Origin: Pseudomonadota bacterium
GTDB lineage: Bacteria; Pseudomonadota; Gammaproteobacteria; Xanthomonadales; Xanthomonadaceae
Direction of reading: 5' to 3'
DNA length: 40,322 nucleotides
Assembly: GCA_963205415.1 (NCBI GenBank)
Contig: CAUJJS010000241.1
Span: forward strand, 1 to 40,322
Shown: positions 8 through 40,322 of the stretch, piece after piece
Numbering within the stretch: the stretch's first letter is position 1
Layout of the letters: every line of letters starts with the position of its first letter
Made by a program: the position numbers and the translations under genes
The notes under the pieces: model-generated
Told to the model about the DNA's origin: nothing
Seen by the model: only the letters and a program-made list of their open reading frames with translations
The model's database searches: none

Positions 8-67
8 AGCGAACAATTCGGTGCAGCCGAAACCGCTACGCGGTTCGGCTGACCTCAGGCGTTAGCC
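8..67 (+). other. attC site, second copy of attC_C, immediately upstream of cassette A
   Basis: nt 1-65 are identical to 890-954 and then continue into cassette A (GTTAGCC) instead of cassette D (GTTAGAT). Confidence 0.88.
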
Positions 68-178
68 CTCATCAGGTGAAGGTGCTCCACCCTTCCTCGG
101 GGTCGTACTCGGCGCCGTCTTCCTGCTCTGGCTGGAACCACCCTAGGTCGATCATCTTCTGCACATCTTCCGGCGTCA
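61..178 (+). repeat. 118-nt direct repeat, left copy
   Basis: Identical to 40205-40322 by direct comparison. Confidence 0.97.
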
Positions 179-365
179 GCGGGAGATTGGTCGGGTAGGC
201 GTAGAACTGGTCATGTTCTGCGCCAATGTGGTAGCCGTCCCCGTCCTTGTAGTACGGTTGCAGCGTCTTCAAGCCTTCGATGAAGTTACTCAGTTTCATG
301 CCATATTTCTCCGTGTAGTACGATTGCAGCGTCTTCAAGCCTTCGATGAAGTTACTCAGTTTCAT
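72..365 (-). CDS. Cassette A: small acidic hypothetical protein with duplicated N-terminus
   Basis: 97-aa ORF; GGAG upstream of ATG; tandem MKLSNFIEGLKTLQ repeats; acidic, Trp-rich C-terminus. Confidence 0.8.
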   Translation of the reverse strand: MKLSNFIEGLKTLQSYYTEKYGMKLSNFIEGLKTLQPYYKDGDGYHIGAEHDQFYAYPTNLPLTPEDVQKMIDLGWFQPEQEDGAEYDPEEGWSTFT

Positions 366-380
366 GCCATATTTCTCCGT
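249..380. repeat. 66-bp in-frame tandem duplication (249-314 and 315-380)
   Basis: Two copies differing at one position (g257/a323); each copy carries the SD-like GGAG and an ATG (on - strand). Confidence 0.95.
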
Positions 381-390
381 AGTAAGCGCC

Positions 391-449
391 GGGCTAACTC
401 TGCATTCCAGCGGATGCGCTACGCGCCCCGCTGAATTTTGGTGTTAGAG
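391..449 (+). other. attC of cassette A
   Basis: GGGCTAAC...CCAGCGG..GCGCTACGCGC..CCGCTG...GTTAGAG; left core complements cassette A start GTTAGCCC. Confidence 0.85.
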
Positions 450-641
450 GGCATAGAACCTGTTTTTGCTTACAGGCTCGATTGTCATTGCTCCATATCG
501 GTACTCTCGGTCCCGGCGAGCACTCGAGTCCATCAAGCCCTCGACTTCGTCGCGCTTCATTGGCCGCTTGAACCTGTATTTTTCCAGCCGATACCAGCCG
601 AAGTGGATCGTCCAGTAGCGAGTCGGTTCCTTTACCTTCAT
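444..641 (-). CDS. Cassette B: small hypothetical protein (MKVKEPTRYWTIHFGWYRLEKYRF...)
   Basis: ATG at 641 preceded by AGAGGG (SD, formed by the attC core); stop TAA is the core TTA itself. Confidence 0.7.
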   Translation of the reverse strand: MKVKEPTRYWTIHFGWYRLEKYRFKRPMKRDEVEGLMDSSARRDREYRYGAMTIEPVSKNRFYAL

Positions 642-650
642 CGAAATGCC

Positions 651-705
651 CTCTAACAGTTCATTCAAGCCGACGCCTGCGCGCGGCTTAATTCAGGGGT
701 TCGCT
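651..705 (+). other. attC of cassette B
   Basis: CTCTAACAGTTCATTCAAGCCGACGCCTGCGCGCGGCTTAATTCAGGGGTTCGCT; ATGCCCTCTAAC complements cassette B start GTTAGAGGGCAT (12/12). Confidence 0.9.
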
Positions 706-875
706 GGCTTCGCGCGCACTTCGTAGACATCGCATGCTGCGACCCGAGCTTCATCGGTCTGATAGAAGAACCTGCCGCGCGCATACTCCTCGTTACGCAG
801 GACGTAACGCACAACACCAACTCGCATCAGCGGGCCAGCCCTGTACAAAATCCAGTCGCCTTCGTTTGCTTCCAT
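693..875 (-). CDS. Cassette C: small hypothetical protein (MEANEGDWILYRAGPLMRVGVVRYVLRNEEYARGRFFYQ...)
   Basis: ATG 875 preceded by CAGGAGA; ORF runs through the core into attC_B for its stop. Confidence 0.75.
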   Translation of the reverse strand: MEANEGDWILYRAGPLMRVGVVRYVLRNEEYARGRFFYQTDEARVAACDVYEVRAKPANP

Positions 876-896
876 CTCGTTCTCCTGTAGTCCGCC

Positions 897-956
897 AGCG
901 AACAATTCGGTGCAGCCGAAACCGCTACGCGGTTCGGCTGACCTCAGGCGTTAGAT
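897..956 (+). other. attC of cassette C
   Basis: AGCGAACAATTCGGTGCAGCCGAAACC...GGTTCGGCTGACCTCAGGCGTTAGAT; GCCAGCGAAC complements cassette C start GTTCGCTGGC (10/10). Confidence 0.9.
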
Positions 957-1178
957 GGGATGAATCCCTTGATCCGCCGACCAATAGCCAACGTCTGCAA
1001 TAACTCCAAGCTGATCGGCTCGGCGCTCGCCAGCGACAAGCCGAGCCGCAGTGTCGACACAGCTTCCGCACCCGCAGAACTCGCCGCCGCAGATGCACAT
1101 TTCATCCCCCGCATGCCTTGCTTCCGAGTACGGCGCGATCCGTAAGCAGTCATTGCAAAGAACAACGTGCTCGCTCAT
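951..1178 (-). CDS. Cassette D: Cys-rich small protein, possible metal-binding (MSEHVVLCNDCLRIAPYSEARHAGDEMCICGGEFCGCGSC...)
   Basis: ATG 1178 preceded by GGGAG; CxxC and CxCGGxFCGCGSC; stop TAA is the core TTA. Confidence 0.75.
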   Translation of the reverse strand: MSEHVVLCNDCLRIAPYSEARHAGDEMCICGGEFCGCGSCVDTAARLVAGERRADQLGVIADVGYWSADQGIHPI

Positions 1179-1189
1179 AAACGACTCCC

Positions 1190-1278
1190 ATCTAACAATT
1201 CGTTCAAGCCGAGCCCGCTTCGCGGTCTCGGGCACAACCGGTTCGCGCGGGCGGGCCGGCTTAACTCAGCCGTTATGC
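1190..1278 (+). other. attC of cassette D
   Basis: ATCTAACAATTCGTTCAAGCCGAGCCC...CGGCTTAACTCAGCCGTTATGC; TCCCATCTAAC complements cassette D start GTTAGATGGGA (11/11). Confidence 0.92.
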
Positions 1279-1532
1279 TGCAGAAACCACAAGAATCGCG
1301 GCCCTTGGCCTTTCACATGCCAAGGCTTCCGCTCCACCTTTCCGCGCATGTGTAGGTTCTTCACGTGCGCGCAGGTGTTGTGCTTCGTCCAACCGGTTTC
1401 GGCGGCAATTTCCGCTGTCGTCGCGGGCCCATCGGCGAGGATGGCCAGCACACGGCTTGCTTTGCTGTCTGGGTGCATCTGTTGCATGGCTCTCGTTCTC
1501 CGTGACCGCTCGGCGGTGTTCATGCCGCGCAC
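1266..1532 (-). CDS. HTH/winged-helix-like small protein, C-terminus altered by cassette insertion
   Basis: ILADGPATTAEIAAETGWTKHNTCAHVKNLHMRGKVER is wHTH-like; last codons HNG* are encoded by the attC_D core and arm. Confidence 0.75.
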   Translation of the reverse strand: MRGMNTAERSRRTRAMQQMHPDSKASRVLAILADGPATTAEIAAETGWTKHNTCAHVKNLHMRGKVERKPWHVKGQGPRFLWFLQHNG

Positions 1533-3136
1533 CTCAGCGCCTGGGTGCAGTCCAGATTTGCGGCTGCGATGGCTGCAAGCGGCGGTGGGCTGACGCTGTT
1601 GCCGACCATGCGCACGGCGCGGGTGGCATTGATTGGCCTGCCATCGGCGGTGCGGTGGAAGATGTAGCCTGGCGGGAATCCTTGGGCTTTGTAGAGCTCG
1701 CTGGGGCGCAGCATGCGCAGGCCGATGTCCACGATGACATGCGGCACGCCGTGGACTTGGACTGTGACGAGTGCGAGGCGGTCGCGGGTGGTGATGGTGT
1801 CGACGGGGTGGGTGATGTCCAGTGCTTGGCCGTTGCCGTAGTAGTTGACGAGGAATGCGGCAACGCGGAGCGCGTTGGATTCTGTTTCCGGGCTCAAGGT
1901 GTACGTGGCGATGGCATGGTGCTCGCCGCCAGCAGAGAGAGTGCGCACGGGCGCATCGATGGCGCTGCCGACGTTATCGCCCCGCATCGTGACCATGTGC
2001 GCCGCCACCAGGCGCTGTTGACTGCCGGTTTGGGTGATGGTGGATAGCGGAGCGTCTGCGCCGCGTGGGGGTGCTGGGTTGCCACTGGGGCCGCCGCCGT
2101 TGGCTTGCTCGATAAATGCGCTGACCAGCGCGAAGTGTCCGCCTTTGACTTGGGCGCACTGTGTGCGTAGCGGTTCGCTTGCTGGCCACGTCGCGCCGCG
2201 CGAGGCGTTGGCAAACTCGGTGATGAATGAGGCATTGCCGGGCACTATGAAGGGCTCGGCTGCGTCGAGGACGTAGCGTTTGATGCCGCGCGCGATGCGC
2301 CGCAATGTGGCTTCGGCGAGGGGCTTGCGGCGGTCGAAGATTGACGGGCAGGGGGCTGACCATGCGATGCAGTCGGCGGCGGTGACGAAGGGTTGGGCGC
2401 AGCCCGGGCCGTGCGTTGGCTTCGGCCATTGGATCGGTTCGCCATCGCAGCGGGCAATCAGGAAAAGGCGCGTGCGGCTGGTGCCTGCGCCATAGTCGCA
2501 GGCGCGCAGTTTGCGCCACTGGACGGTGTAGCCGAGGCGGCGCAGCGCAGCGACAAAGTGCTGCCATGTTCGGCCTGCGTGGCGCTTGTCGGGCACCAGG
2601 AATTGGTTGTCGATCGGCACGCGCTCGCCGGGTGCGGATACGCTGCCATCCAGGCGAAGGGCGCGGCGGGTTGCGCGGTCTCGCTTGGCCACGAGCGGGC
2701 CCCATTTCAGGATCTGCTCGACGTTTTCCAGGCTGATGATGCGCGGACGCACGGCGCCAGCCCACTTGAGCACGACCCACGACAGCGAGCGCGTGGCGCG
2801 GCTGCGTGGCTGGCCGCCCTTGGCTTGGCTGAAATGCGTGCAATCGGGCGACGCGTGCAGCCAGCCTACGGGCCTGCCGGCGCATTCGGTGCGCGGGTCT
2901 GCGGCCCATACGTCTTCGCACAGGTGCCGAGCCAGCGGGTGATTGGCGGCGTGCATGCCGATGGCCCAGGCATCGTGGTTGATGCAGATGTCGGGGTCTC
3001 GGCCGAGCGCTTGTCGGAGTGCTTCGCTTGCGCCGCCGCCGCCGGCGAAAAGATCGACAACGATTTCCCCGTGGCGCAGTTTGGATGCGCCGGTGGCGTG
3101 GAAGCCGAAGCCTTGCTGGCGGTTTCCATCAGCCAT
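1520..3136 (-). CDS. DNA (cytosine-5) methyltransferase
   Basis: VVDLFAGGGGASEA (motif I), ASPDCTHFSQAKGG (motif IV, PDC instead of PCQ), SLENVEQI (ENV motif), GNSVSPPPL (motif X); start chosen at MADGNRQQ, 8-nt overlap with upstream gene. Confidence 0.9.
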   Translation of the reverse strand: MADGNRQQGFGFHATGASKLRHGEIVVDLFAGGGGASEALRQALGRDPDICINHDAWAIGMHAANHPLARHLCEDVWAADPRTECAGRPVGWLHASPDCTHFSQAKGGQPRSRATRSLSWVVLKWAGAVRPRIISLENVEQILKWGPLVAKRDRATRRALRLDGSVSAPGERVPIDNQFLVPDKRHAGRTWQHFVAALRRLGYTVQWRKLRACDYGAGTSRTRLFLIARCDGEPIQWPKPTHGPGCAQPFVTAADCIAWSAPCPSIFDRRKPLAEATLRRIARGIKRYVLDAAEPFIVPGNASFITEFANASRGATWPASEPLRTQCAQVKGGHFALVSAFIEQANGGGPSGNPAPPRGADAPLSTITQTGSQQRLVAAHMVTMRGDNVGSAIDAPVRTLSAGGEHHAIATYTLSPETESNALRVAAFLVNYYGNGQALDITHPVDTITTRDRLALVTVQVHGVPHVIVDIGLRMLRPSELYKAQGFPPGYIFHRTADGRPINATRAVRMVGNSVSPPPLAAIAAANLDCTQALRCAA

Positions 3137-3584
3137 TGGCGGACACCTTGCGCGGCCTTGCGCGCGCCCATGAGCGGCCTGCCCAAATGTCGCGCACGGT
3201 GTTTGCCGACACGCCGTAGCGCATGGCGATGGTGCGTGCCGTGGTTGCGACGGCGGTTGCCCGGGCGGCGCGGATTTCTGCCACATCGGCGGGCAGCAGC
3301 TTGGTGGCGCCTCGGCGTCGGCAGCTGGTTGCGTAGTGATCGCAGTCCAGGTGATGCGGGTTGACGCATCCGACCACGCCGCAGGTGGGATAGACGACAG
3401 CGCCTTCCGGGATGGGGCCGAACAGCTGCGACCAGATCCAGCGGTGCGCGAGCATGTCGCGCCCTCCGAAGGTGATCTTTCCGTGGCCGAGTTCGGTTGT
3501 CGAGCCGAGCCAGAGCCAGCAGTCGTCTGGCGACTTGCCGATCTGGACGCGCTGGGTGATGGGTTGGCCGGGGTGGGGCATGGC
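3129..3584 (-). CDS. HNH endonuclease-like protein with C-terminal HTH-like segment
   Basis: CWLWLG..GHGKITFGGRDMLAHRWIW...CGVVGCVNPHHL; ISAMRYGVSANTVRDIWAGRSW-like HTH; start estimated at MPHPGQ. Confidence 0.75.
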   Translation of the reverse strand, partial: AMPHPGQPITQRVQIGKSPDDCWLWLGSTTELGHGKITFGGRDMLAHRWIWSQLFGPIPEGAVVYPTCGVVGCVNPHHLDCDHYATSCRRRGATKLLPADVAEIRAARATAVATTARTIAMRYGVSANTVRDIWAGRSWARARPRKVSANG

Positions 3585-3600: not shown

Positions 3601-4404
3601 TTACGGGCTGAAGGAGCCAACGACCAGCGGGAAATTGAGGTCGTTGCTGAGCAGGCTGACGAATTCCTGTGCGATGTCTTCTTCGGCGCTTTCCTTGCCG
3701 ACGATGCGCAGGATGAGCGCGGGCTTGTCCTGGGTTCGCACTGAAAGCCTCAGGACGAAATCGCGCTCGCGAAACCCGGCGTAGGGCGTAGTGGTAAAGA
3801 TGAACTTCGGCGGGATGCCGGCATCGGATCGGGCCTCGATTTCTTCAAGCGCGCTGCGCTTTGCGCCGAAGTCTTTTTCAACGCTGTTGGTTTCGCTGGT
3901 GGCCTTGATCTTGATGTCGCGGATGGCGCTGATGGCGCGCTGCAGGTTGGCGGGTGCGCCGTCGCCGTAGTCGGGGGCGATGTTCGCGCTCCAGTCTTCG
4001 ATGAAGTCTGTCATTTCGCGTTGCGACATGGGCCGGCCATTGATGGCAAGCAGGGCCGCATAGGGTGCGGCTGGCTCCAGCTCAAGCGTGGCACGCCAAT
4101 CGGCGTGGCCGGGGGCCAGTTCGTCGCCGATGTTGAGGAAAACGGTGGCGGATGCTTTCTTTGCATCAATGAATCCGCGCGAGAGGTCGAGCTTTCCATT
4201 GCTGCCAACGTATTCGATGAATCCTTCAAGCGAGGTTGTGTTGAAGGTGCCACGGAAGCGTGCGCGCCCGGCGTTCAGGTGTTCAAGCGACAGCACTTTG
4301 CCGTCGTGCAGTACGGCTGGAATCAGCCCGTTTTCGAGGCGATTGGCCAACGCGGCGGCGAGGGCGAGGCGTTCGATCTTGTCGATTGTTGTGGCGTCCA
4401 TCAT
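3601..4404 (-). CDS. DUF2303 (YfdQ-like) family phage protein
   Basis: 267 aa; ...SRGFIDAKKASATVFLNIGDELAPGHADWRATLELEPAAPYAALLAINGRPMSQREMTDFIEDW, typical of this family. Confidence 0.8.
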   Translation of the reverse strand: MMDATTIDKIERLALAAALANRLENGLIPAVLHDGKVLSLEHLNAGRARFRGTFNTTSLEGFIEYVGSNGKLDLSRGFIDAKKASATVFLNIGDELAPGHADWRATLELEPAAPYAALLAINGRPMSQREMTDFIEDWSANIAPDYGDGAPANLQRAISAIRDIKIKATSETNSVEKDFGAKRSALEEIEARSDAGIPPKFIFTTTPYAGFRERDFVLRLSVRTQDKPALILRIVGKESAEEDIAQEFVSLLSNDLNFPLVVGSFSP

Positions 4405-6715: not shown

Positions 6716-7117
6716 TCAGCCGGAGCCCATGTTCAAGTCGTCTGGTTGCGCGCTCGCAGCAGCTTGGTCATCAACGATTTGCCGAAAGCGCTCGGCGGAA
6801 GCCCGGTAGTTTTCTATGAGAACGGCTTCGCGCTGCGTGAGGCGCATGGGTGTTGTTTGTAGGTAGGGGGCTCGCGATTCCGCGATTCCTGCTCTTGGGG
6901 CAATTGGAATTATCCCGAGCAATTCGTCGCTGGTGCAGTTAAGCAAGGCACACAGGTTGACAATGTGGTGTCTGGCGATCGCGCCTTGGGTGAGCCATTT
7001 GGAACCGACTGCGGTCGGTGATACGCCCATAGCCTCCGCGACCTTGGCTTGTGTGACTCCGGCGCGCGCCATCAGCTGGCGAAGGCGGTCACCGTCGTGT
7101 TGATTTGATTCAACCAT
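6716..7117 (-). CDS. XRE-family CI-like repressor without a protease domain
   Basis: RLRQLMARAGVTQAKVAEAMGVSPTAVGSKWLTQGAIARHHIVNLCALLNCTSDELLGI; 133 aa; operators flank the gene. Confidence 0.85.
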   Translation of the reverse strand: MVESNQHDGDRLRQLMARAGVTQAKVAEAMGVSPTAVGSKWLTQGAIARHHIVNLCALLNCTSDELLGIIPIAPRAGIAESRAPYLQTTPMRLTQREAVLIENYRASAERFRQIVDDQAAASAQPDDLNMGSG

Positions 7118-7192
7118 GGGTTCATGGTCGGCCGCCGACTCTGAGCAATCAAGAAACCTGGGGTTGCGTTTGAAGTGAACCTGTGGTTCACT
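7108..7192 (+). promoter_or_regulatory. Operator cluster with predicted PR (sites at 7108-7126, 7151-7169, 7174-7192)
   Basis: Each has AACC-N3-GGTT; 7174-7192 is AGTGAACC-TGT-GGTTCACT; TTGCGT-N17-TTCACT on + strand; first site overlaps the repressor ATG. Confidence 0.7.
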
Positions 7193-7199
7193 CCGCCCC

Positions 7200-7475
7200 A
7201 TGCCGAAACACGCACTTGAAAAAGCAATAGCGCTTCTCGGGCTCACCGGGCTGGCCAGGGCACTTGGGGACATTTCAGCGCCTGGCGTAGCCAAGTGGCT
7301 GAAGAACGGCGTGCCGCGCGAGCGATGCACTGCGATTGAAGCCGCGACTAGCGGTGCCGTCCGCTGCGAAGACCTGCGGCCTGAGGTCGACTGGCTTCGC
7401 GACGATGCTGGCGTTGTCACCGGATACCACGTGCGCGTGGAACCGCCGGGCGTCACCGAACAGAAGGTGGCCTGA
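7200..7475 (+). CDS. YdaS/Cro-like regulatory protein
   Basis: ALEKAIALLGLTGLARALGDISAPGVAKWLKNGVPRERCTAIEAATSGAVRCEDLRPEVDW. Confidence 0.85.
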   Translation: MPKHALEKAIALLGLTGLARALGDISAPGVAKWLKNGVPRERCTAIEAATSGAVRCEDLRPEVDWLRDDAGVVTGYHVRVEPPGVTEQKVA

Positions 7476-7476
7476 C

Positions 7477-7848
7477 ATGGCACTGTCTGGCGTCGTGGTC
7501 ACGGTTGAAATGGAAGGGCGTAAGGTCAAGGCGATCGTCAACGCGAGCGACACCGACCTCTCGCTTTGTGTTGGCAAGGTGGTTGGCAAGTGCGTCGAGG
7601 CTATTGTCGCAGAACGTCTCGTCGGCGCGGCTCTCGACGTGTCAGACCTGGCGCTGCCGAAACTCGACGCCATTACGCGCCATCTTCTGGCTCCTGATCC
7701 CGGCGACGCCAAATTGCGAGCAACATTGCGACGCGTTCTTGCGCGGCTTTCGCAACAGGCGTGTTCCCCGAGCCCTCCGCGTAAGAAGTGTCGAGCGAGC
7801 ACTCCAGCGCGTCCAGGACGTTCGCGCGGTCGGGGTGATTCTCCATGA
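7477..7848 (+). CDS. Hypothetical early right protein
   Basis: MALSGVVVTVEMEGRKVKAIVNASDTDLSLCVGKVVGKC..., directly after cro-like gene; C-terminal part overlaps an antisense ORF. Confidence 0.5.
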   Translation: MALSGVVVTVEMEGRKVKAIVNASDTDLSLCVGKVVGKCVEAIVAERLVGAALDVSDLALPKLDAITRHLLAPDPGDAKLRATLRRVLARLSQQACSPSPPRKKCRASTPARPGRSRGRGDSP

Positions 7849-29059: not shown

Positions 29060-30967
29060 ATGGCAATCACTTCACTCGACATCAAGTTCCGGCAATCCGA
29101 AAGGATGACGGATTTCAGCGACGGCGGTGGCCGCATGGCGGCGGTCGAGATCGTCGACGGCGACATGAACAATGTGTTTCCGGATCGCTCCGACCTTGGC
29201 GCGATCCTTGGCAATGTGAGCCTGCGCAAGATGTTCCTGCACGTGGACACGGTGAATACCGACACCTACCTCGGTGCCTTCGTTTTTCTGACCGATCCGC
29301 CGACCGAACCGCTGGTTGACGTGACCCTGTTCAACACGGCGAGCGCCACCGATGAGCGCACTGCGGCGCGCAACTACGTGGAGGCGTACCGGATCAAGGG
29401 CACCAAAACGCAGTACACGCTGTACGGCACCCACCTGGCCGGGCAGATGACTCTTCAGGTCTACTGCCGCGCGGAAATTGCCTCGCCGGACATCGGCGAC
29501 GTGCTGTGCCTGAGCGTGGAGGCCGCAGGCTACACGCCGACGGAGCAATACGTGCGCGTGCAGGAAGTGGCGTCGCGCATCACGGCAACTTTCGAGGATG
29601 CGCAGGGCCAGTTCGAACGCGATGTGTTGGTGATCCAGATCAGCCAGGCACTGGACCAGAACTTCGTAGGCCAGGAAGACCCCAAGCGCTTCACGGGCGA
29701 TTCTCCGCCGCCGACCAAGATCCGCACCACCAGCGTGGCCAACGCCGCGAAATACTATGCGGTGAAGCCGACGACGGAATCGGCGGCGCTCGGTGCGCTC
29801 ACGGTGAACATCGGCAGCCCGTACGTGGCGATCGTGCCCAGCGCGCAGGCGGAAACGCCAATCGTCGATCAACTGGCCGGGCTTGGCTCGGTGGCCTTGA
29901 TCAAATCCAGTGCGGCCGCTGCGTTGACCTTTTCCGGATCGATGTCCGGTGCGGCCGATGCGCTGGTCACGCGCTATTTCGGCACGCCGTTTGCGCGAAA
30001 GTCGCTGAACATCACCTTCGGCGGCATCGCCCTGCGTGACGACGGCGCTGGCGGCATCGAGCCGGTGGACCCGGTGAACACCGGCTGGAGTGGCGTTGCA
30101 GACTACAGCACCGGGGCATTCGCCATTGCGCGCGACATCGGGTTCAGCGGATCGGTTTCGGCCACCGCCACGGCGGCTGGCGCCATCACGGAGCAGGCGT
30201 ATTCGATACCCATTGTGGTGACGCCTGCAACGCGGCAGCAGACCTACGTGTATCAGATCCCGGCGCAACCTTCGCCCGGCACAGTCATCATTGACTATCG
30301 CGCGCTCGGCAAGTGGATCCGTCTGACAGACAACGGCGCTGGCCAGCTCGGCGGAAACGCAGGCGAGGGCAGCGGCACGATCAACTACGCGACCGGCAGT
30401 GTTGCCGTCACGCTCGGGGCGCTGCCGGATGTCGATAGCGCGGTGATTCTGGCCTGGGGCACTGACCTGCGCGCGCACGATTCGCACGGCGAGATCACCA
30501 TCCAAACGCCGACATTCCGCCAGCAGCTCGACCACCCGGGCGTTGTGCCGGACACGCTGAGCATGTCATGGGTATCCGGTGGCAACGCCAAGTCCGCGAC
30601 CACGGACGCGGCAGGCGCCATCACCGGCGATGCCACGGGCAGCGTGGATCACTTCGCCGGTGTAGTGACCTTCACCACGTCGGCCGTGCCGGATGGCTTG
30701 ATCACCTACACATACGATTACGTGGACCCCGCCGATTCGTGCAGCGAGGTTTTCACGCCGACGCCGTCGTCCGGGTCTGCGTCCGTGACCACGGCATTCG
30801 CGATTGCGCAGAACACGGTGCGCGCTTCGTGGTTTGTGTCAAGGAACATTCCGCCGCCCGTCGTCCGCCAACTCACTGCCACCGACAACGGTTCCGGCGG
30901 TTGGGCTGGCGGTGTCGTGGGCACCATCAACTACGCCACTGGCGCAATCACGCTTGAGGTCGAATAA
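29060..30967 (+). CDS. Tail protein with repeated NYATG-type motifs
   Basis: 635 aa; GTINYATGSVAVTLGALPD, GTINYATGAITLEV. Confidence 0.7.
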   Translation: MAITSLDIKFRQSERMTDFSDGGGRMAAVEIVDGDMNNVFPDRSDLGAILGNVSLRKMFLHVDTVNTDTYLGAFVFLTDPPTEPLVDVTLFNTASATDERTAARNYVEAYRIKGTKTQYTLYGTHLAGQMTLQVYCRAEIASPDIGDVLCLSVEAAGYTPTEQYVRVQEVASRITATFEDAQGQFERDVLVIQISQALDQNFVGQEDPKRFTGDSPPPTKIRTTSVANAAKYYAVKPTTESAALGALTVNIGSPYVAIVPSAQAETPIVDQLAGLGSVALIKSSAAAALTFSGSMSGAADALVTRYFGTPFARKSLNITFGGIALRDDGAGGIEPVDPVNTGWSGVADYSTGAFAIARDIGFSGSVSATATAAGAITEQAYSIPIVVTPATRQQTYVYQIPAQPSPGTVIIDYRALGKWIRLTDNGAGQLGGNAGEGSGTINYATGSVAVTLGALPDVDSAVILAWGTDLRAHDSHGEITIQTPTFRQQLDHPGVVPDTLSMSWVSGGNAKSATTDAAGAITGDATGSVDHFAGVVTFTTSAVPDGLITYTYDYVDPADSCSEVFTPTPSSGSASVTTAFAIAQNTVRASWFVSRNIPPPVVRQLTATDNGSGGWAGGVVGTINYATGAITLEVE

Positions 30968-37316: not shown

Positions 37317-38918
37317 CTATGATGCGCGGCTCTGAGGTGGCGGGACAGGGATACGGAGCGGCGCTGTCAGATAGCGCACGTAGCCCGCCCCCGCTACCAA
37401 CGCTAGCTGACTTTTGTCGGCGACCGATGACGACGACGGCGAGGCCTCTATCCAGGTCTCGCCGTTTTCGTTTTTGACGGTGGCGGTTTCGCCTAGTACT
37501 TCGCGGAGGCATTCGCGGGCGGCTGGGATTTCGTCGGGGCGGGTGCCGAGGGTGGCGATGGCTTGCTGCCAGATCTCGCGCAGGCGAGGGATGATCGTTG
37601 CTGGTTGCAGTTGCTTGAGGGCTTCGAGGGCGCGCCTGGCTTCATCGACGGTGGCTTCGGCTGCGATGAGTTCGGCTTTGGTGCTGGGGGTGAGGATGCC
37701 TTCGCGGATGGCGCGCATGAGGTTGGCGTGTACGCGTTCTGCGGCGGCCAGGCGGACCTTGGCGCCGTCGATGTCTGGTGCGTGGCGCTTGAGTTCGTCG
37801 GCGACGGCGCGTTGTGCGGTTTGCCAGGCGGATTCGGATTCGAGTAGTCGGCGCACGCCGGCGAGTGCGGCCGATTCGAGTGTGCGCCGGTCGATGCGCA
37901 GGGTGCTCGGGCAGACGGCTGATCCGCGTTCCTTGTGCGCGCTGCAGCCGTAGCGGTAGCGGTCGACGATGACGAAGGCGGCGCCGCATTCGCAGCATCG
38001 GAGCACGCCGCTCAGGAGGTGCTTCATCGGTCGGCCGGCGTTGCGTTTGCCGGTGCTGGTGTTTCGATGCTGGCCTTTGACGCGCGCTTGGGCGCGTTGC
38101 CAGGTGTCGGTGTCGATGATGGCCAGGTCCGCGTTGTGGTGCACGATCCATTCCGACTGCGGGCGCTCCTGTCGGACGCGTCGGCCGGTGTCGGGGTGCT
38201 TGATCCAGTGGCTTCGGTTCCAGACTTGCTGCCCGGCATAGATGGGGTTGGCGAGGATGCCAATGCCGCGGCGTGCGTCGCCGAAGATGGCGCTGGCGCA
38301 CCAGGCGGTGCCGCGGGGTGAGCGCACGCGATCGGCGTTGAGCGTGGATGCGATTGTGCGTGCGCTGTGACCTTCGAGGTAGAGCGCGTAGATCCTACGC
38401 ACGATTGCCGCCTGCTCGGGATCGATGGCGCGTTCACCGACGCCGGTGATGCGGTAGCCGAATGGGAGGCCGCCGGCGCTGGCTCCAGCGAGCGCGCGGC
38501 CGGTGAGTCCGCGATGCGTCTTGTCGGCGAGGTCGTCCAGGTAAAGCTCCGACATGATGCCGCGCAGCCCGACGTCTGCCTTGTGTGACTTGCGAGCGGT
38601 GTCGACGCCATCGCTGACACCGATGAGACGCACACCGGCGAAGCGTAGGCGCTTCACTGCGGCGTTGACTTCGCCCATGTCGCGGGACAGGCGCGAAAGG
38701 TCATCAACCAGGATCACATCGAACTCGCCGGATTCTTTCAGCAATGTGCGGTAGCCGGGGCGGTCGTTGCGCGCGCCGCTCACTGCGGCGTCGGTGTAGA
38801 TCGTCGGTTTGGGCCACCCCTGCCGCGCGCAGTAGGCGCGGCAGTTGCGCAGCTGGTCGTCGAGCGAGGCCTCGCGCTGTGCGTCTGAGCTGTAGCGGGC
38901 GTAGGCGGCGGTGCGCAT
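37317..38918 (-). CDS. Large serine recombinase (phage integrase)
   Basis: AAYARYSSDAQREASLDDQL, VDDLSRLSRD, resolvase fold, recombinase domain LPFGYRI...IYAGQQVWNR, zinc ribbon CCECGAAFV. Confidence 0.93.
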   Translation of the reverse strand: MRTAAYARYSSDAQREASLDDQLRNCRAYCARQGWPKPTIYTDAAVSGARNDRPGYRTLLKESGEFDVILVDDLSRLSRDMGEVNAAVKRLRFAGVRLIGVSDGVDTARKSHKADVGLRGIMSELYLDDLADKTHRGLTGRALAGASAGGLPFGYRITGVGERAIDPEQAAIVRRIYALYLEGHSARTIASTLNADRVRSPRGTAWCASAIFGDARRGIGILANPIYAGQQVWNRSHWIKHPDTGRRVRQERPQSEWIVHHNADLAIIDTDTWQRAQARVKGQHRNTSTGKRNAGRPMKHLLSGVLRCCECGAAFVIVDRYRYGCSAHKERGSAVCPSTLRIDRRTLESAALAGVRRLLESESAWQTAQRAVADELKRHAPDIDGAKVRLAAAERVHANLMRAIREGILTPSTKAELIAAEATVDEARRALEALKQLQPATIIPRLREIWQQAIATLGTRPDEIPAARECLREVLGETATVKNENGETWIEASPSSSSVADKSQLALVAGAGYVRYLTAPLRIPVPPPQSRAS

Positions 38919-38928
38919 GGCGCGGAGC

Positions 38929-39099
38929 CTATGCGGCCTGCTGTGGCGGTTGCAACGGCACCCGCTCCGAGCGCAGTCGCTGATTTTCAAGCGCCGGCAC
39001 GGGTTTGGGTGTCAGATAATCGGCGACGATGGAGCGCGCCATCGCGGCGATCAGCGCCTGTAGGGCTGGGTTCACGGTGGCTGCGCCTGGGTTCTTCAT
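38929..39099 (-). CDS. Small hypothetical protein
   Basis: MKNPGAATVNPALQALIAAMARSIVADYLTPKP; ATGA overlap with upstream gene. Confidence 0.6.
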   Translation of the reverse strand: MKNPGAATVNPALQALIAAMARSIVADYLTPKPVPALENQRLRSERVPLQPPQQAA

Positions 39100-39593: not shown

Positions 39594-39868
39594 CTTCGTT
39601 CGTCCTCTACGTTCCGTCTCTGTTCTGGCCAGTCAAGCGCGGTTTTTCCTGCCCACTTTGTCAGCTTGTGGTGGATGATCGCGGCGGCTTTCTTGTTGCT
39701 CTTGTCCAGCGAAACGGAGAGCGCGATTTCCATGTCCGCAGCGCGGCAGGTTGCTTCGTGCAATGCGGCGCTGATTCCTTGCCTGGCGGCCTCGGCTACG
39801 AAAGCCGCGCTCTCTGGATCGGTTGCGACGTAAGCACGAACGAGTTGCAGGAATTGGTCGCGGGTCAT
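39590..39868 (-). CDS. Hypothetical early protein
   Basis: MTRDQFLQLVRAYVATDPESAAFVAEAARQGISAALHEATCRAADMEIALSVSLDKSNKKAAAIIHHKLTKWAGKTALDW. Confidence 0.7.
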   Translation of the reverse strand: MTRDQFLQLVRAYVATDPESAAFVAEAARQGISAALHEATCRAADMEIALSVSLDKSNKKAAAIIHHKLTKWAGKTALDWPEQRRNVEDERR

Positions 39869-40173
39869 GGGGTGGATGCTCTCTCGCTTGCGATGCGCGG
39901 CATGGATCTGCGCAGTCCGTCGAGGACGCGCGACCAGCCGATGCGGGCCTTCCACTCGCGCCCGTCGACGACGGCGCGGTAGGTGTCGATGCGGGTGGTT
40001 TTGTGCAGTTCGATTACGTGCGTCATGGGCTCTGCGCCGTCGAAGTCCTCGATGGTGATCCGGCGGCGCAGGTCTGGCGGTTGCCAGCGGGGTGGCCGCT
40101 GGTCGTCATCGGGGATTTCTTGCCGCGGCCGCCATTGGCTGCGAGCGGCGTACTTTTTGGTTCGGCGGTACAT
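39865..40173 (-). CDS. Hypothetical early protein, first phage operon gene downstream of the cassette insertion
   Basis: MYRRTKKYAARSQWRPRQEIPDDDQRPPRWQ...; SD-like AAGG overlaps the reconstructed TGA of the upstream gene (40184-40186). Confidence 0.7.
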   Translation of the reverse strand: MYRRTKKYAARSQWRPRQEIPDDDQRPPRWQPPDLRRRITIEDFDGAEPMTHVIELHKTTRIDTYRAVVDGREWKARIGWSRVLDGLRRSMPRIASERASTP

Positions 40174-40204
40174 GTGCAGACCTTCAACGCTCCGGATATT
40201 TGTT

Positions 40205-40322
40205 GTTAGCCCTCATCAGGTGAAGGTGCTCCACCCTTCCTCGGGGTCGTACTCGGCGCCGTCTTCCTGCTCTGGCTGGAACCACCCTAGGTCGATCATC
40301 TTCTGCACATCTTCCGGCGTCA
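40205..40322 (+). repeat. 118-nt direct repeat, right copy (start of cassette A)
   Basis: Identical to 61-178; flank differs upstream (phage sequence here, attC upstream of 61). Confidence 0.97.

Follow-up and report, generated by a model that had tools for sequence, protein, structure and literature searches.

Cassettes with attC 5' of the gene in the leftward operon of a temperate siphophage, and reversed cassette layout as the rule in phages

Phages were found to carry integron-type gene cassettes in which attC lies 5' of the gene and the ORF is antisense to attC. This reversed layout is the norm in phages and hardly ever seen in bacteria. The starting case is a stretch of 40,322 bases (hereafter the window), a complete contig. 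The genome to which it belongs is fragmented, in 273 contigs, and 85.5% complete, and its relatives are rich in integrons. The window encodes a temperate siphophage with four cassettes (A to D) in its leftward early operon. The array is probably best read as a CALIN of phage-type cassettes with attC 5' of the gene, presumably mobilised by a host IntI and, by hypothesis, oriented by a strand effect that is set out below.

Primase, large terminase, portal, head protease and tape measure are encoded on the + strand of the phage. The leftward operon (-) runs from a repressor-like gene (6716-7483) through the DNA methylase, the winged-helix gene, the cassettes and the small gene downstream of the array to the large serine integrase (Table 1). 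In the initial annotation the cassette ORFs were described as following the phage early operon, and this was upheld by the two genes upstream of the array and the one downstream, all of which lie on the - strand. Relatives of the winged-helix gene were sought and none was found.

Five attC sites were located, all with the same layout on the + strand. R'' ends in AAC, L'' has 9 nt and L' 8 nt, the extra base being at position 4 of L'' (the left arm) in 5/5; a spacer of 5 nt separates AAC from L'' and one of 6 nt separates L' from GTT. The sites were recognised both by hand and by a detector for the order AAC, spacer, left arm (longer by one base), right arm, spacer, GTT, and their detector scores were 10.75-11.5, compared with a maximum of ~10.25 in shuffles. 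A covariance model (R1), prepared from 39 attC of this family in bacterial arrays and oriented by the sense genes preceding them, matched 5/5 sites on + (41.9-66.7 bits) and gave no match on the - strand of the window up to E = 10. Folding energies of both attC strands were nearly equal and did not separate the strands, so that polarity rests on the bulge and the motif. The + polarity originally read from the asymmetry of the arms was thus borne out.

The start of each cassette was complementary to its own R'' in 4/4 (GTTAGCCC/GGGCTAAC, GTTAGAGGGCAT/ATGCCCTCTAAC, GTTCGCTGG/CCAGCGAAC and GTTAGATGGGA/TCCCATCTAAC). Such complementarity is unexpected of random hairpins, and the cassette units are therefore real. 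They possess the parts of an integron gene cassette (R''/R' as AAC..GTT, L''/L' arms with the extra base, a start complementary to R'') and depart from the classical form in that the ORF is antisense to attC and attC lies 5' of the gene. The array falls under the definition of a CALIN, having two or more attC while no IntI scored above cut-off in the genome (85.5% complete). It is not a complete integron, given the same result for IntI in this incomplete genome and the serine type of the integrase that the phage itself encodes.

Codon log-odds on - and + were 24.4 versus 3.4 for ORF A and 7.8 versus 1.3 for ORF B, 9.7 on - with no rival for ORF C, and nearly tied at 1.7 versus 1.2 for ORF D. 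The earlier placement of all four ORFs on the - strand accordingly stood for A, B and C, for A also by conservation in phage relatives (85% identity in L023, 69% in L024), and was left undecided by codon usage for D. A 66-bp tandem duplication was observed at the start of gene A (244-309 and 310-375, 97% identical), which doubles the start codon and ribosome-binding site and makes the protein 22 residues longer; it accounts for the two in-frame ATGs of ORF A, 66 nt apart. No relatives of B or D were present among 310 fetched loci, and none of C in IMG/VR. In 249 host-family genomes no homologue of cassette A, C or D was found, which indicates that these are not host cassettes.

Table 1. Features of the window (first 19 rows) and cassette-end/leader junctions in related phages. 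Slashes mark crossover points or junctions.
Feature	Positions	Strand	Evidence or remark
attC S1, at the contig start: alternative junction to A of a cassette whose end is identical to that of C	8..67	+	66.7 bits
attC S2, cassette A's own, 5' of ORF A	392..449	+	41.9 bits
attC S3, cassette B's own	651..705	+	47.4 bits
attC S4, cassette C's own	897..956	+	65.5 bits
attC S5, cassette D's own; phage DNA from 1273 forms its right part	1190..1278	+	64.0 bits
Cassette A, G61/TT62 to G443/TT444	62..443	+ (attC polarity)	matching R'/R'' ends
Cassette B	444..699	+ (attC polarity)	sequence
Cassette C	700..950	+ (attC polarity)	sequence
Cassette D	951..1272	+ (attC polarity)	sequence
ORF A, 97 aa, antisense to attC	72..365	-	codon log-odds; relatives in L023 and L024
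ORF B, 65 aa	444..641	-	codon log-odds
ORF C, 60 aa from its ATG	693..875	-	codon log-odds
ORF D, 75 aa, Cys-rich	951..1178	-	coding direction undecided by codon usage
Winged-helix, MarR-like (HTH) phage gene, upstream of array	1266..1532	-	PF12802, E 3.8e-7
Phage C5-cytosine DNA methylase (MTase), upstream of array	1520..3286	-	PF00145, E 5.6e-24
Large serine integrase of the phage	37317..38990	-	phrog_95, E 3.6e-85
Small phage gene directly downstream of array	39865..40173	-	cassette junctions in its leader in other phages too
Phage docking point (..GGATATTTGTTG/TT..) in leader of the next operon gene; cassette A adjoins at 40205/40206; junction GGGCTAAC/AACAAATATCCGGAGCG	40174..40205	+
Second copy of cassette A start (= 61-178), phage-to-A junction closing the circle	40205..40322	+	sequence identity
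Junction in L289, CGCCCAAC/AACAATTCGACGGAGCG	near 2900
Junction in L318, AACCTAAC/AAGAATTGAACGGAGCG	near 20
Junction in L319, CGGCTAAC/AAGTAATCACC (location for L319-L321)	near 3965

The contig closes on itself via cassette A, positions 40205-40322 being the same as 61-178, and the unique circle is ~40,144 bases. Positions 1-65 are identical to 890-954. On its left side cassette A borders phage DNA at one place in this contig (40205) and the end of cassette C at another (1-60). The C-to-A junction is what excision or tandem repetition of an A-B-C block would produce. The array may therefore be undergoing rearrangement within the population, with an assembly artefact as the alternative.

The orientation of cassettes was surveyed by a search for attC that used no gene information, and 41 viral-contig loci and 118 bacterial-genome loci were carried through the same pipeline. 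Bacterial cassettes numbered 206 sense to 3 antisense in the 118 loci (~1.4% antisense), and those in the arrays of 12 genomes of the family numbered 194 to 5. Viral contigs held 60 antisense and 11 sense cassettes, a tally that takes in four loci fetched by gene A and in which duplicate contigs are still present (Fisher p ~1e-45); at the level of independent viral contigs, 27/33 were antisense (Fisher 3e-18). Surveying ORF polarity in other phage-borne cassettes had been proposed with the initial annotation, and the antisense rule was strongly confirmed by it. The sedentary chromosomal integrons of Xanthomonadaceae and relatives carry the same attC family, as their covariance model finds the phage sites, but differ from the phage arrays in that their ORFs run in the attC sense, IntI and attI are present and attC is fairly uniform within an array. 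The named loci with the window's type of attC indicate Xanthomonadaceae and relatives.

In-array genes of the antisense contigs were 99 antisense to 1 sense, attC polarity was uniform inside every array, and the genes flanking viral arrays were mostly co-directional with the cassettes. Terminases, portals, tail and head proteins and phage polymerases adjoined the antisense arrays. Six viral contigs were sense, of which two (L031, L057) encode IntI and are clearly integrons of bacteria, two (L035, L037) come from isolate genomes and two (L038, L058) from metagenomes. The exceptions to the rule are L037, L038 and L058 together with Tetrasphaera phage TJE1 (Qi et al. 2023), which is conventional, with attC at 1016-1075 and 1462-1519 and ORFs all on +. 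Phage MW202573 (L205), from the same study, is antisense by our own reading, with attC at 2619-2703 and 2281-2340 on - and genes on +. Phage P12002L (L086), like MW202573 a published phage CALIN, was observed to carry a weak attC (30005-30059) that, again by our own reading, opposes the annotated genes; the reversal passes unremarked in the passages of Qi et al. 2023 consulted. Most of the orientation evidence is supplied by uncultivated contigs. When INPHARED was queried with cassette arrays, attC matches were returned only for P1 and other classical integron carriers, and cultured examples are thus scarce.

A second set was assembled independently of attC, from 80 viral loci fetched by the methyltransferase gene of one cassette; L234 and L235 were left out because the attC search had already yielded their contigs under that gene. 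The covariance model detected 54 attC in 17 of these loci (one, L289, shares a contig with L054), with 54 antisense to the methyltransferase and 0 sense. Adjacent attC lay 5' of the gene for 16/17 methyltransferase genes (5' only for 10, 3' only for 1, both for 6), usually 18-51 nt from the start codon. Another methyltransferase family, with 72 phage loci, gave no attC at all, so the model does not fire randomly in phage DNA. As an observation apart, one N6/N4 methyltransferase family (L236-L303) is a frequent phage cassette, about 1/5 of the 80 viral loci having attC.

The unit that moves was delimited by comparing the same cassette gene in different surroundings. L034 and L070 encode a cassette protein that is 92% identical, and their homology starts exactly at the crossover AAC (complement of G/TT) of the 5' hairpin and ends after the gene. 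Cassette A in the window and its relative in L023 have the 5' hairpin type in common and not the 3' site. These limits indicate that the mobile unit is the hairpin plus the downstream gene, which, with polarity read as described, is what standard IntI cleavage at R' predicts. One pair, L044/L065, is an exception, with unlike 5' attC and similar 3' attC. Two further observations concern gene A: in L023 (4930-5020) a relative of its cassette has its insertion point exactly at the TTTAAC stop codon of a methyltransferase-like phage gene, and in L026 a relative lies in a phage operon with no detectable attC.

At its far end the window array meets the leader of the small downstream gene, relatives of which occur in L289/L054, L318 and L319-L321, and the cassette end (..YAAC) meets that leader at the same point in all four lineages (Table 1). 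The surroundings of arrays are otherwise largely unrelated between phages, and other phages dock elsewhere. On these junction sequences, the leader is a candidate for the phage equivalent of attI. The junction TTGTTG/TT is present in the window, and the empty site is predicted to be ATTTGTTG/TTATGCTGCAG (ATTTGTTGTTATGCTGCAG); an empty docking site was sought in relatives and none was found. No docking motif was common to the array ends of all phages, several apparent ends running into further attC. A truncated start of the docking-site gene was observed inside the L321 array (1952-2101), upstream of the intact copy (4001-4336). Non-classical genomic insertion sites of the form G/TT are termed attG. 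The window array likewise appears to lie at a simple G/TT in phage DNA, but differs from attG in that its docking point, the leader of one gene, is reused in several related phages.

Recognisable products among 100 cassette proteins were DNA methyltransferases, a Mom-like modification protein, Dam, NinX, a dATP/dGTP diphosphohydrolase and phage gp49-like proteins, and the same cassette genes recur in unrelated arrays. This phage cargo, its recurrence and the absence of A, C and D from the host family argue for a separate pool rather than borrowed host cassettes; phages appear to hold their own pool of 5'-attC cassettes, rich in DNA-modification genes. No IntI-family enzyme was encoded in the antisense contigs except that of L052. 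IntI was above cut-off in 102/150 host relatives, including both congeners of the host, and the phage cassettes are presumably moved by host IntI.

Phage CALINs, with attC arrays lacking IntI and methyltransferase cargo, have been described, and in the assay of that study phage attC were recombined by IntI1 with the bottom strand preferred (Qi et al. 2023, PMC9892861). Those CALINs and the phage arrays surveyed here are alike in both respects, absence of IntI and methyltransferase cargo; ORF direction relative to attC is undiscussed in the text consulted. A general reversal of phage cassettes was not stated in the literature searched, a search in which preprints and most subscription journals lay outside scope. 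In bacteria the recombinogenic bottom strand is on the leading-strand template, and inversion of the V. cholerae array, which places it on the lagging template, sharply increases excision (PMC11023631). The engineered integron, in which the entire array is turned round relative to replication, would hypothetically resemble the phage arrangement in this placement of the bottom strand, whereas its ORFs stay sense to attC (PMC11023631).

On the reading that we favour, a host IntI would excise units and insert them at G/TT sites, in the window phage at the docking point in the leader of the small downstream gene. The cassettes would be expressed from the phage operon, for which the gene must run with the operon. 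If genes follow the operon, a reversed attC would make the recombinogenic bottom strand the coding strand, and if the operon runs with replication that strand would be the lagging-strand template. The coding strand is also the one displaced in transcription, so that attC would fold and recombine readily. Bacterial chromosomal arrays would have the opposite, quiet arrangement, and orientation could then separate two pools, a cassette from one being silent in the other. We consider it most likely that attC is reversed because the recombinogenic strand would then coincide with the coding strand, which is probably the lagging template.

Birth bias is the alternative that survives best, and we rate it as possible though less probable than the reading above. 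Here a phage gene receives an attC in its leader, and the end of that gene supplies the second site, through a stop codon within TAAC, the complement of G/TT; cassettes would be antisense by construction and would then spread among phages. The phage origin of the cargo genes agrees with this, as do lone methyltransferase cassettes with attC only 5', several cassette genes that end inside the R box TAAC, and the attC-less relative of gene A in the L026 operon. R boxes are inverted repeats, however, so that sense cassettes can also have a stop in TAAC, and birth bias alone does not explain why phages have almost no sense cassettes. It is compatible with the favoured reading, and the two effects may act together.

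The direction of the ORFs was initially attributed to selection for expression from the phage operon. That the genes run with the operon stands, but such selection cannot alone yield antisense cassettes, since sense cassettes in the other insertion orientation would be expressed just as well and the bacterial pool is nearly all sense; a separate phage pool or a DNA-level reason for attC polarity is therefore needed. For the same reason we regard as improbable a common bacterial pool that lands both ways and from which only cassettes with the ORF along the phage operon are kept. Cassettes and flanking genes are indeed co-directional in nearly all arrays, as this account expects, but mostly sense cassettes should then be seen, where counts of 99 : 1 and 54 : 0 antisense were obtained, and A, C and D are missing from the 249 host-family genomes. 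Movement of the units by a recombinase that prefers the opposite strand, whether phage-borne or not, which would make the reversal only apparent, is more doubtful still: nothing speaks directly in its favour, the L034/L070 boundary falls on the standard G/TT of R', as IntI would cut, and the antisense contigs are free of IntI-family enzymes apart from that of L052. Misassigned polarity, or bacterial integrons misbinned as viral, can be set aside as very improbable, for although IMG/VR does include bacterial integrons (L031, L057), these IntI-bearing contaminants are the sense ones, the same pipeline returned bacterial cassettes as sense, three lines agree on polarity (bulge and motif, covariance model, L034/L070) and phage hallmark genes flank the arrays.

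We give roughly even chances to a broader proposal, that phages own an orientation-isolated cassette system: a shared pool of 5'-attC cassettes with DNA-modification and counter-defence genes, fixed docking sites, movement by host integrase and an orientation set by the recombinogenic strand, a mirror of the defence-storing bacterial integron. Bacterial integrons have recently been described as anti-phage defence libraries (refs 91-93 of PMC12444791). If phages run a reversed pool, with methyltransferase and Mom cargo, on the same enzyme, then host IntI serves both sides. Were this true, cassette orientation would be a barrier between phage and bacterial pools, and cassette-finding software that assumes sense ORFs would misjudge phage arrays. 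Why attC and gene polarity are coupled in bacteria would become a directly testable question, because phages break that coupling.
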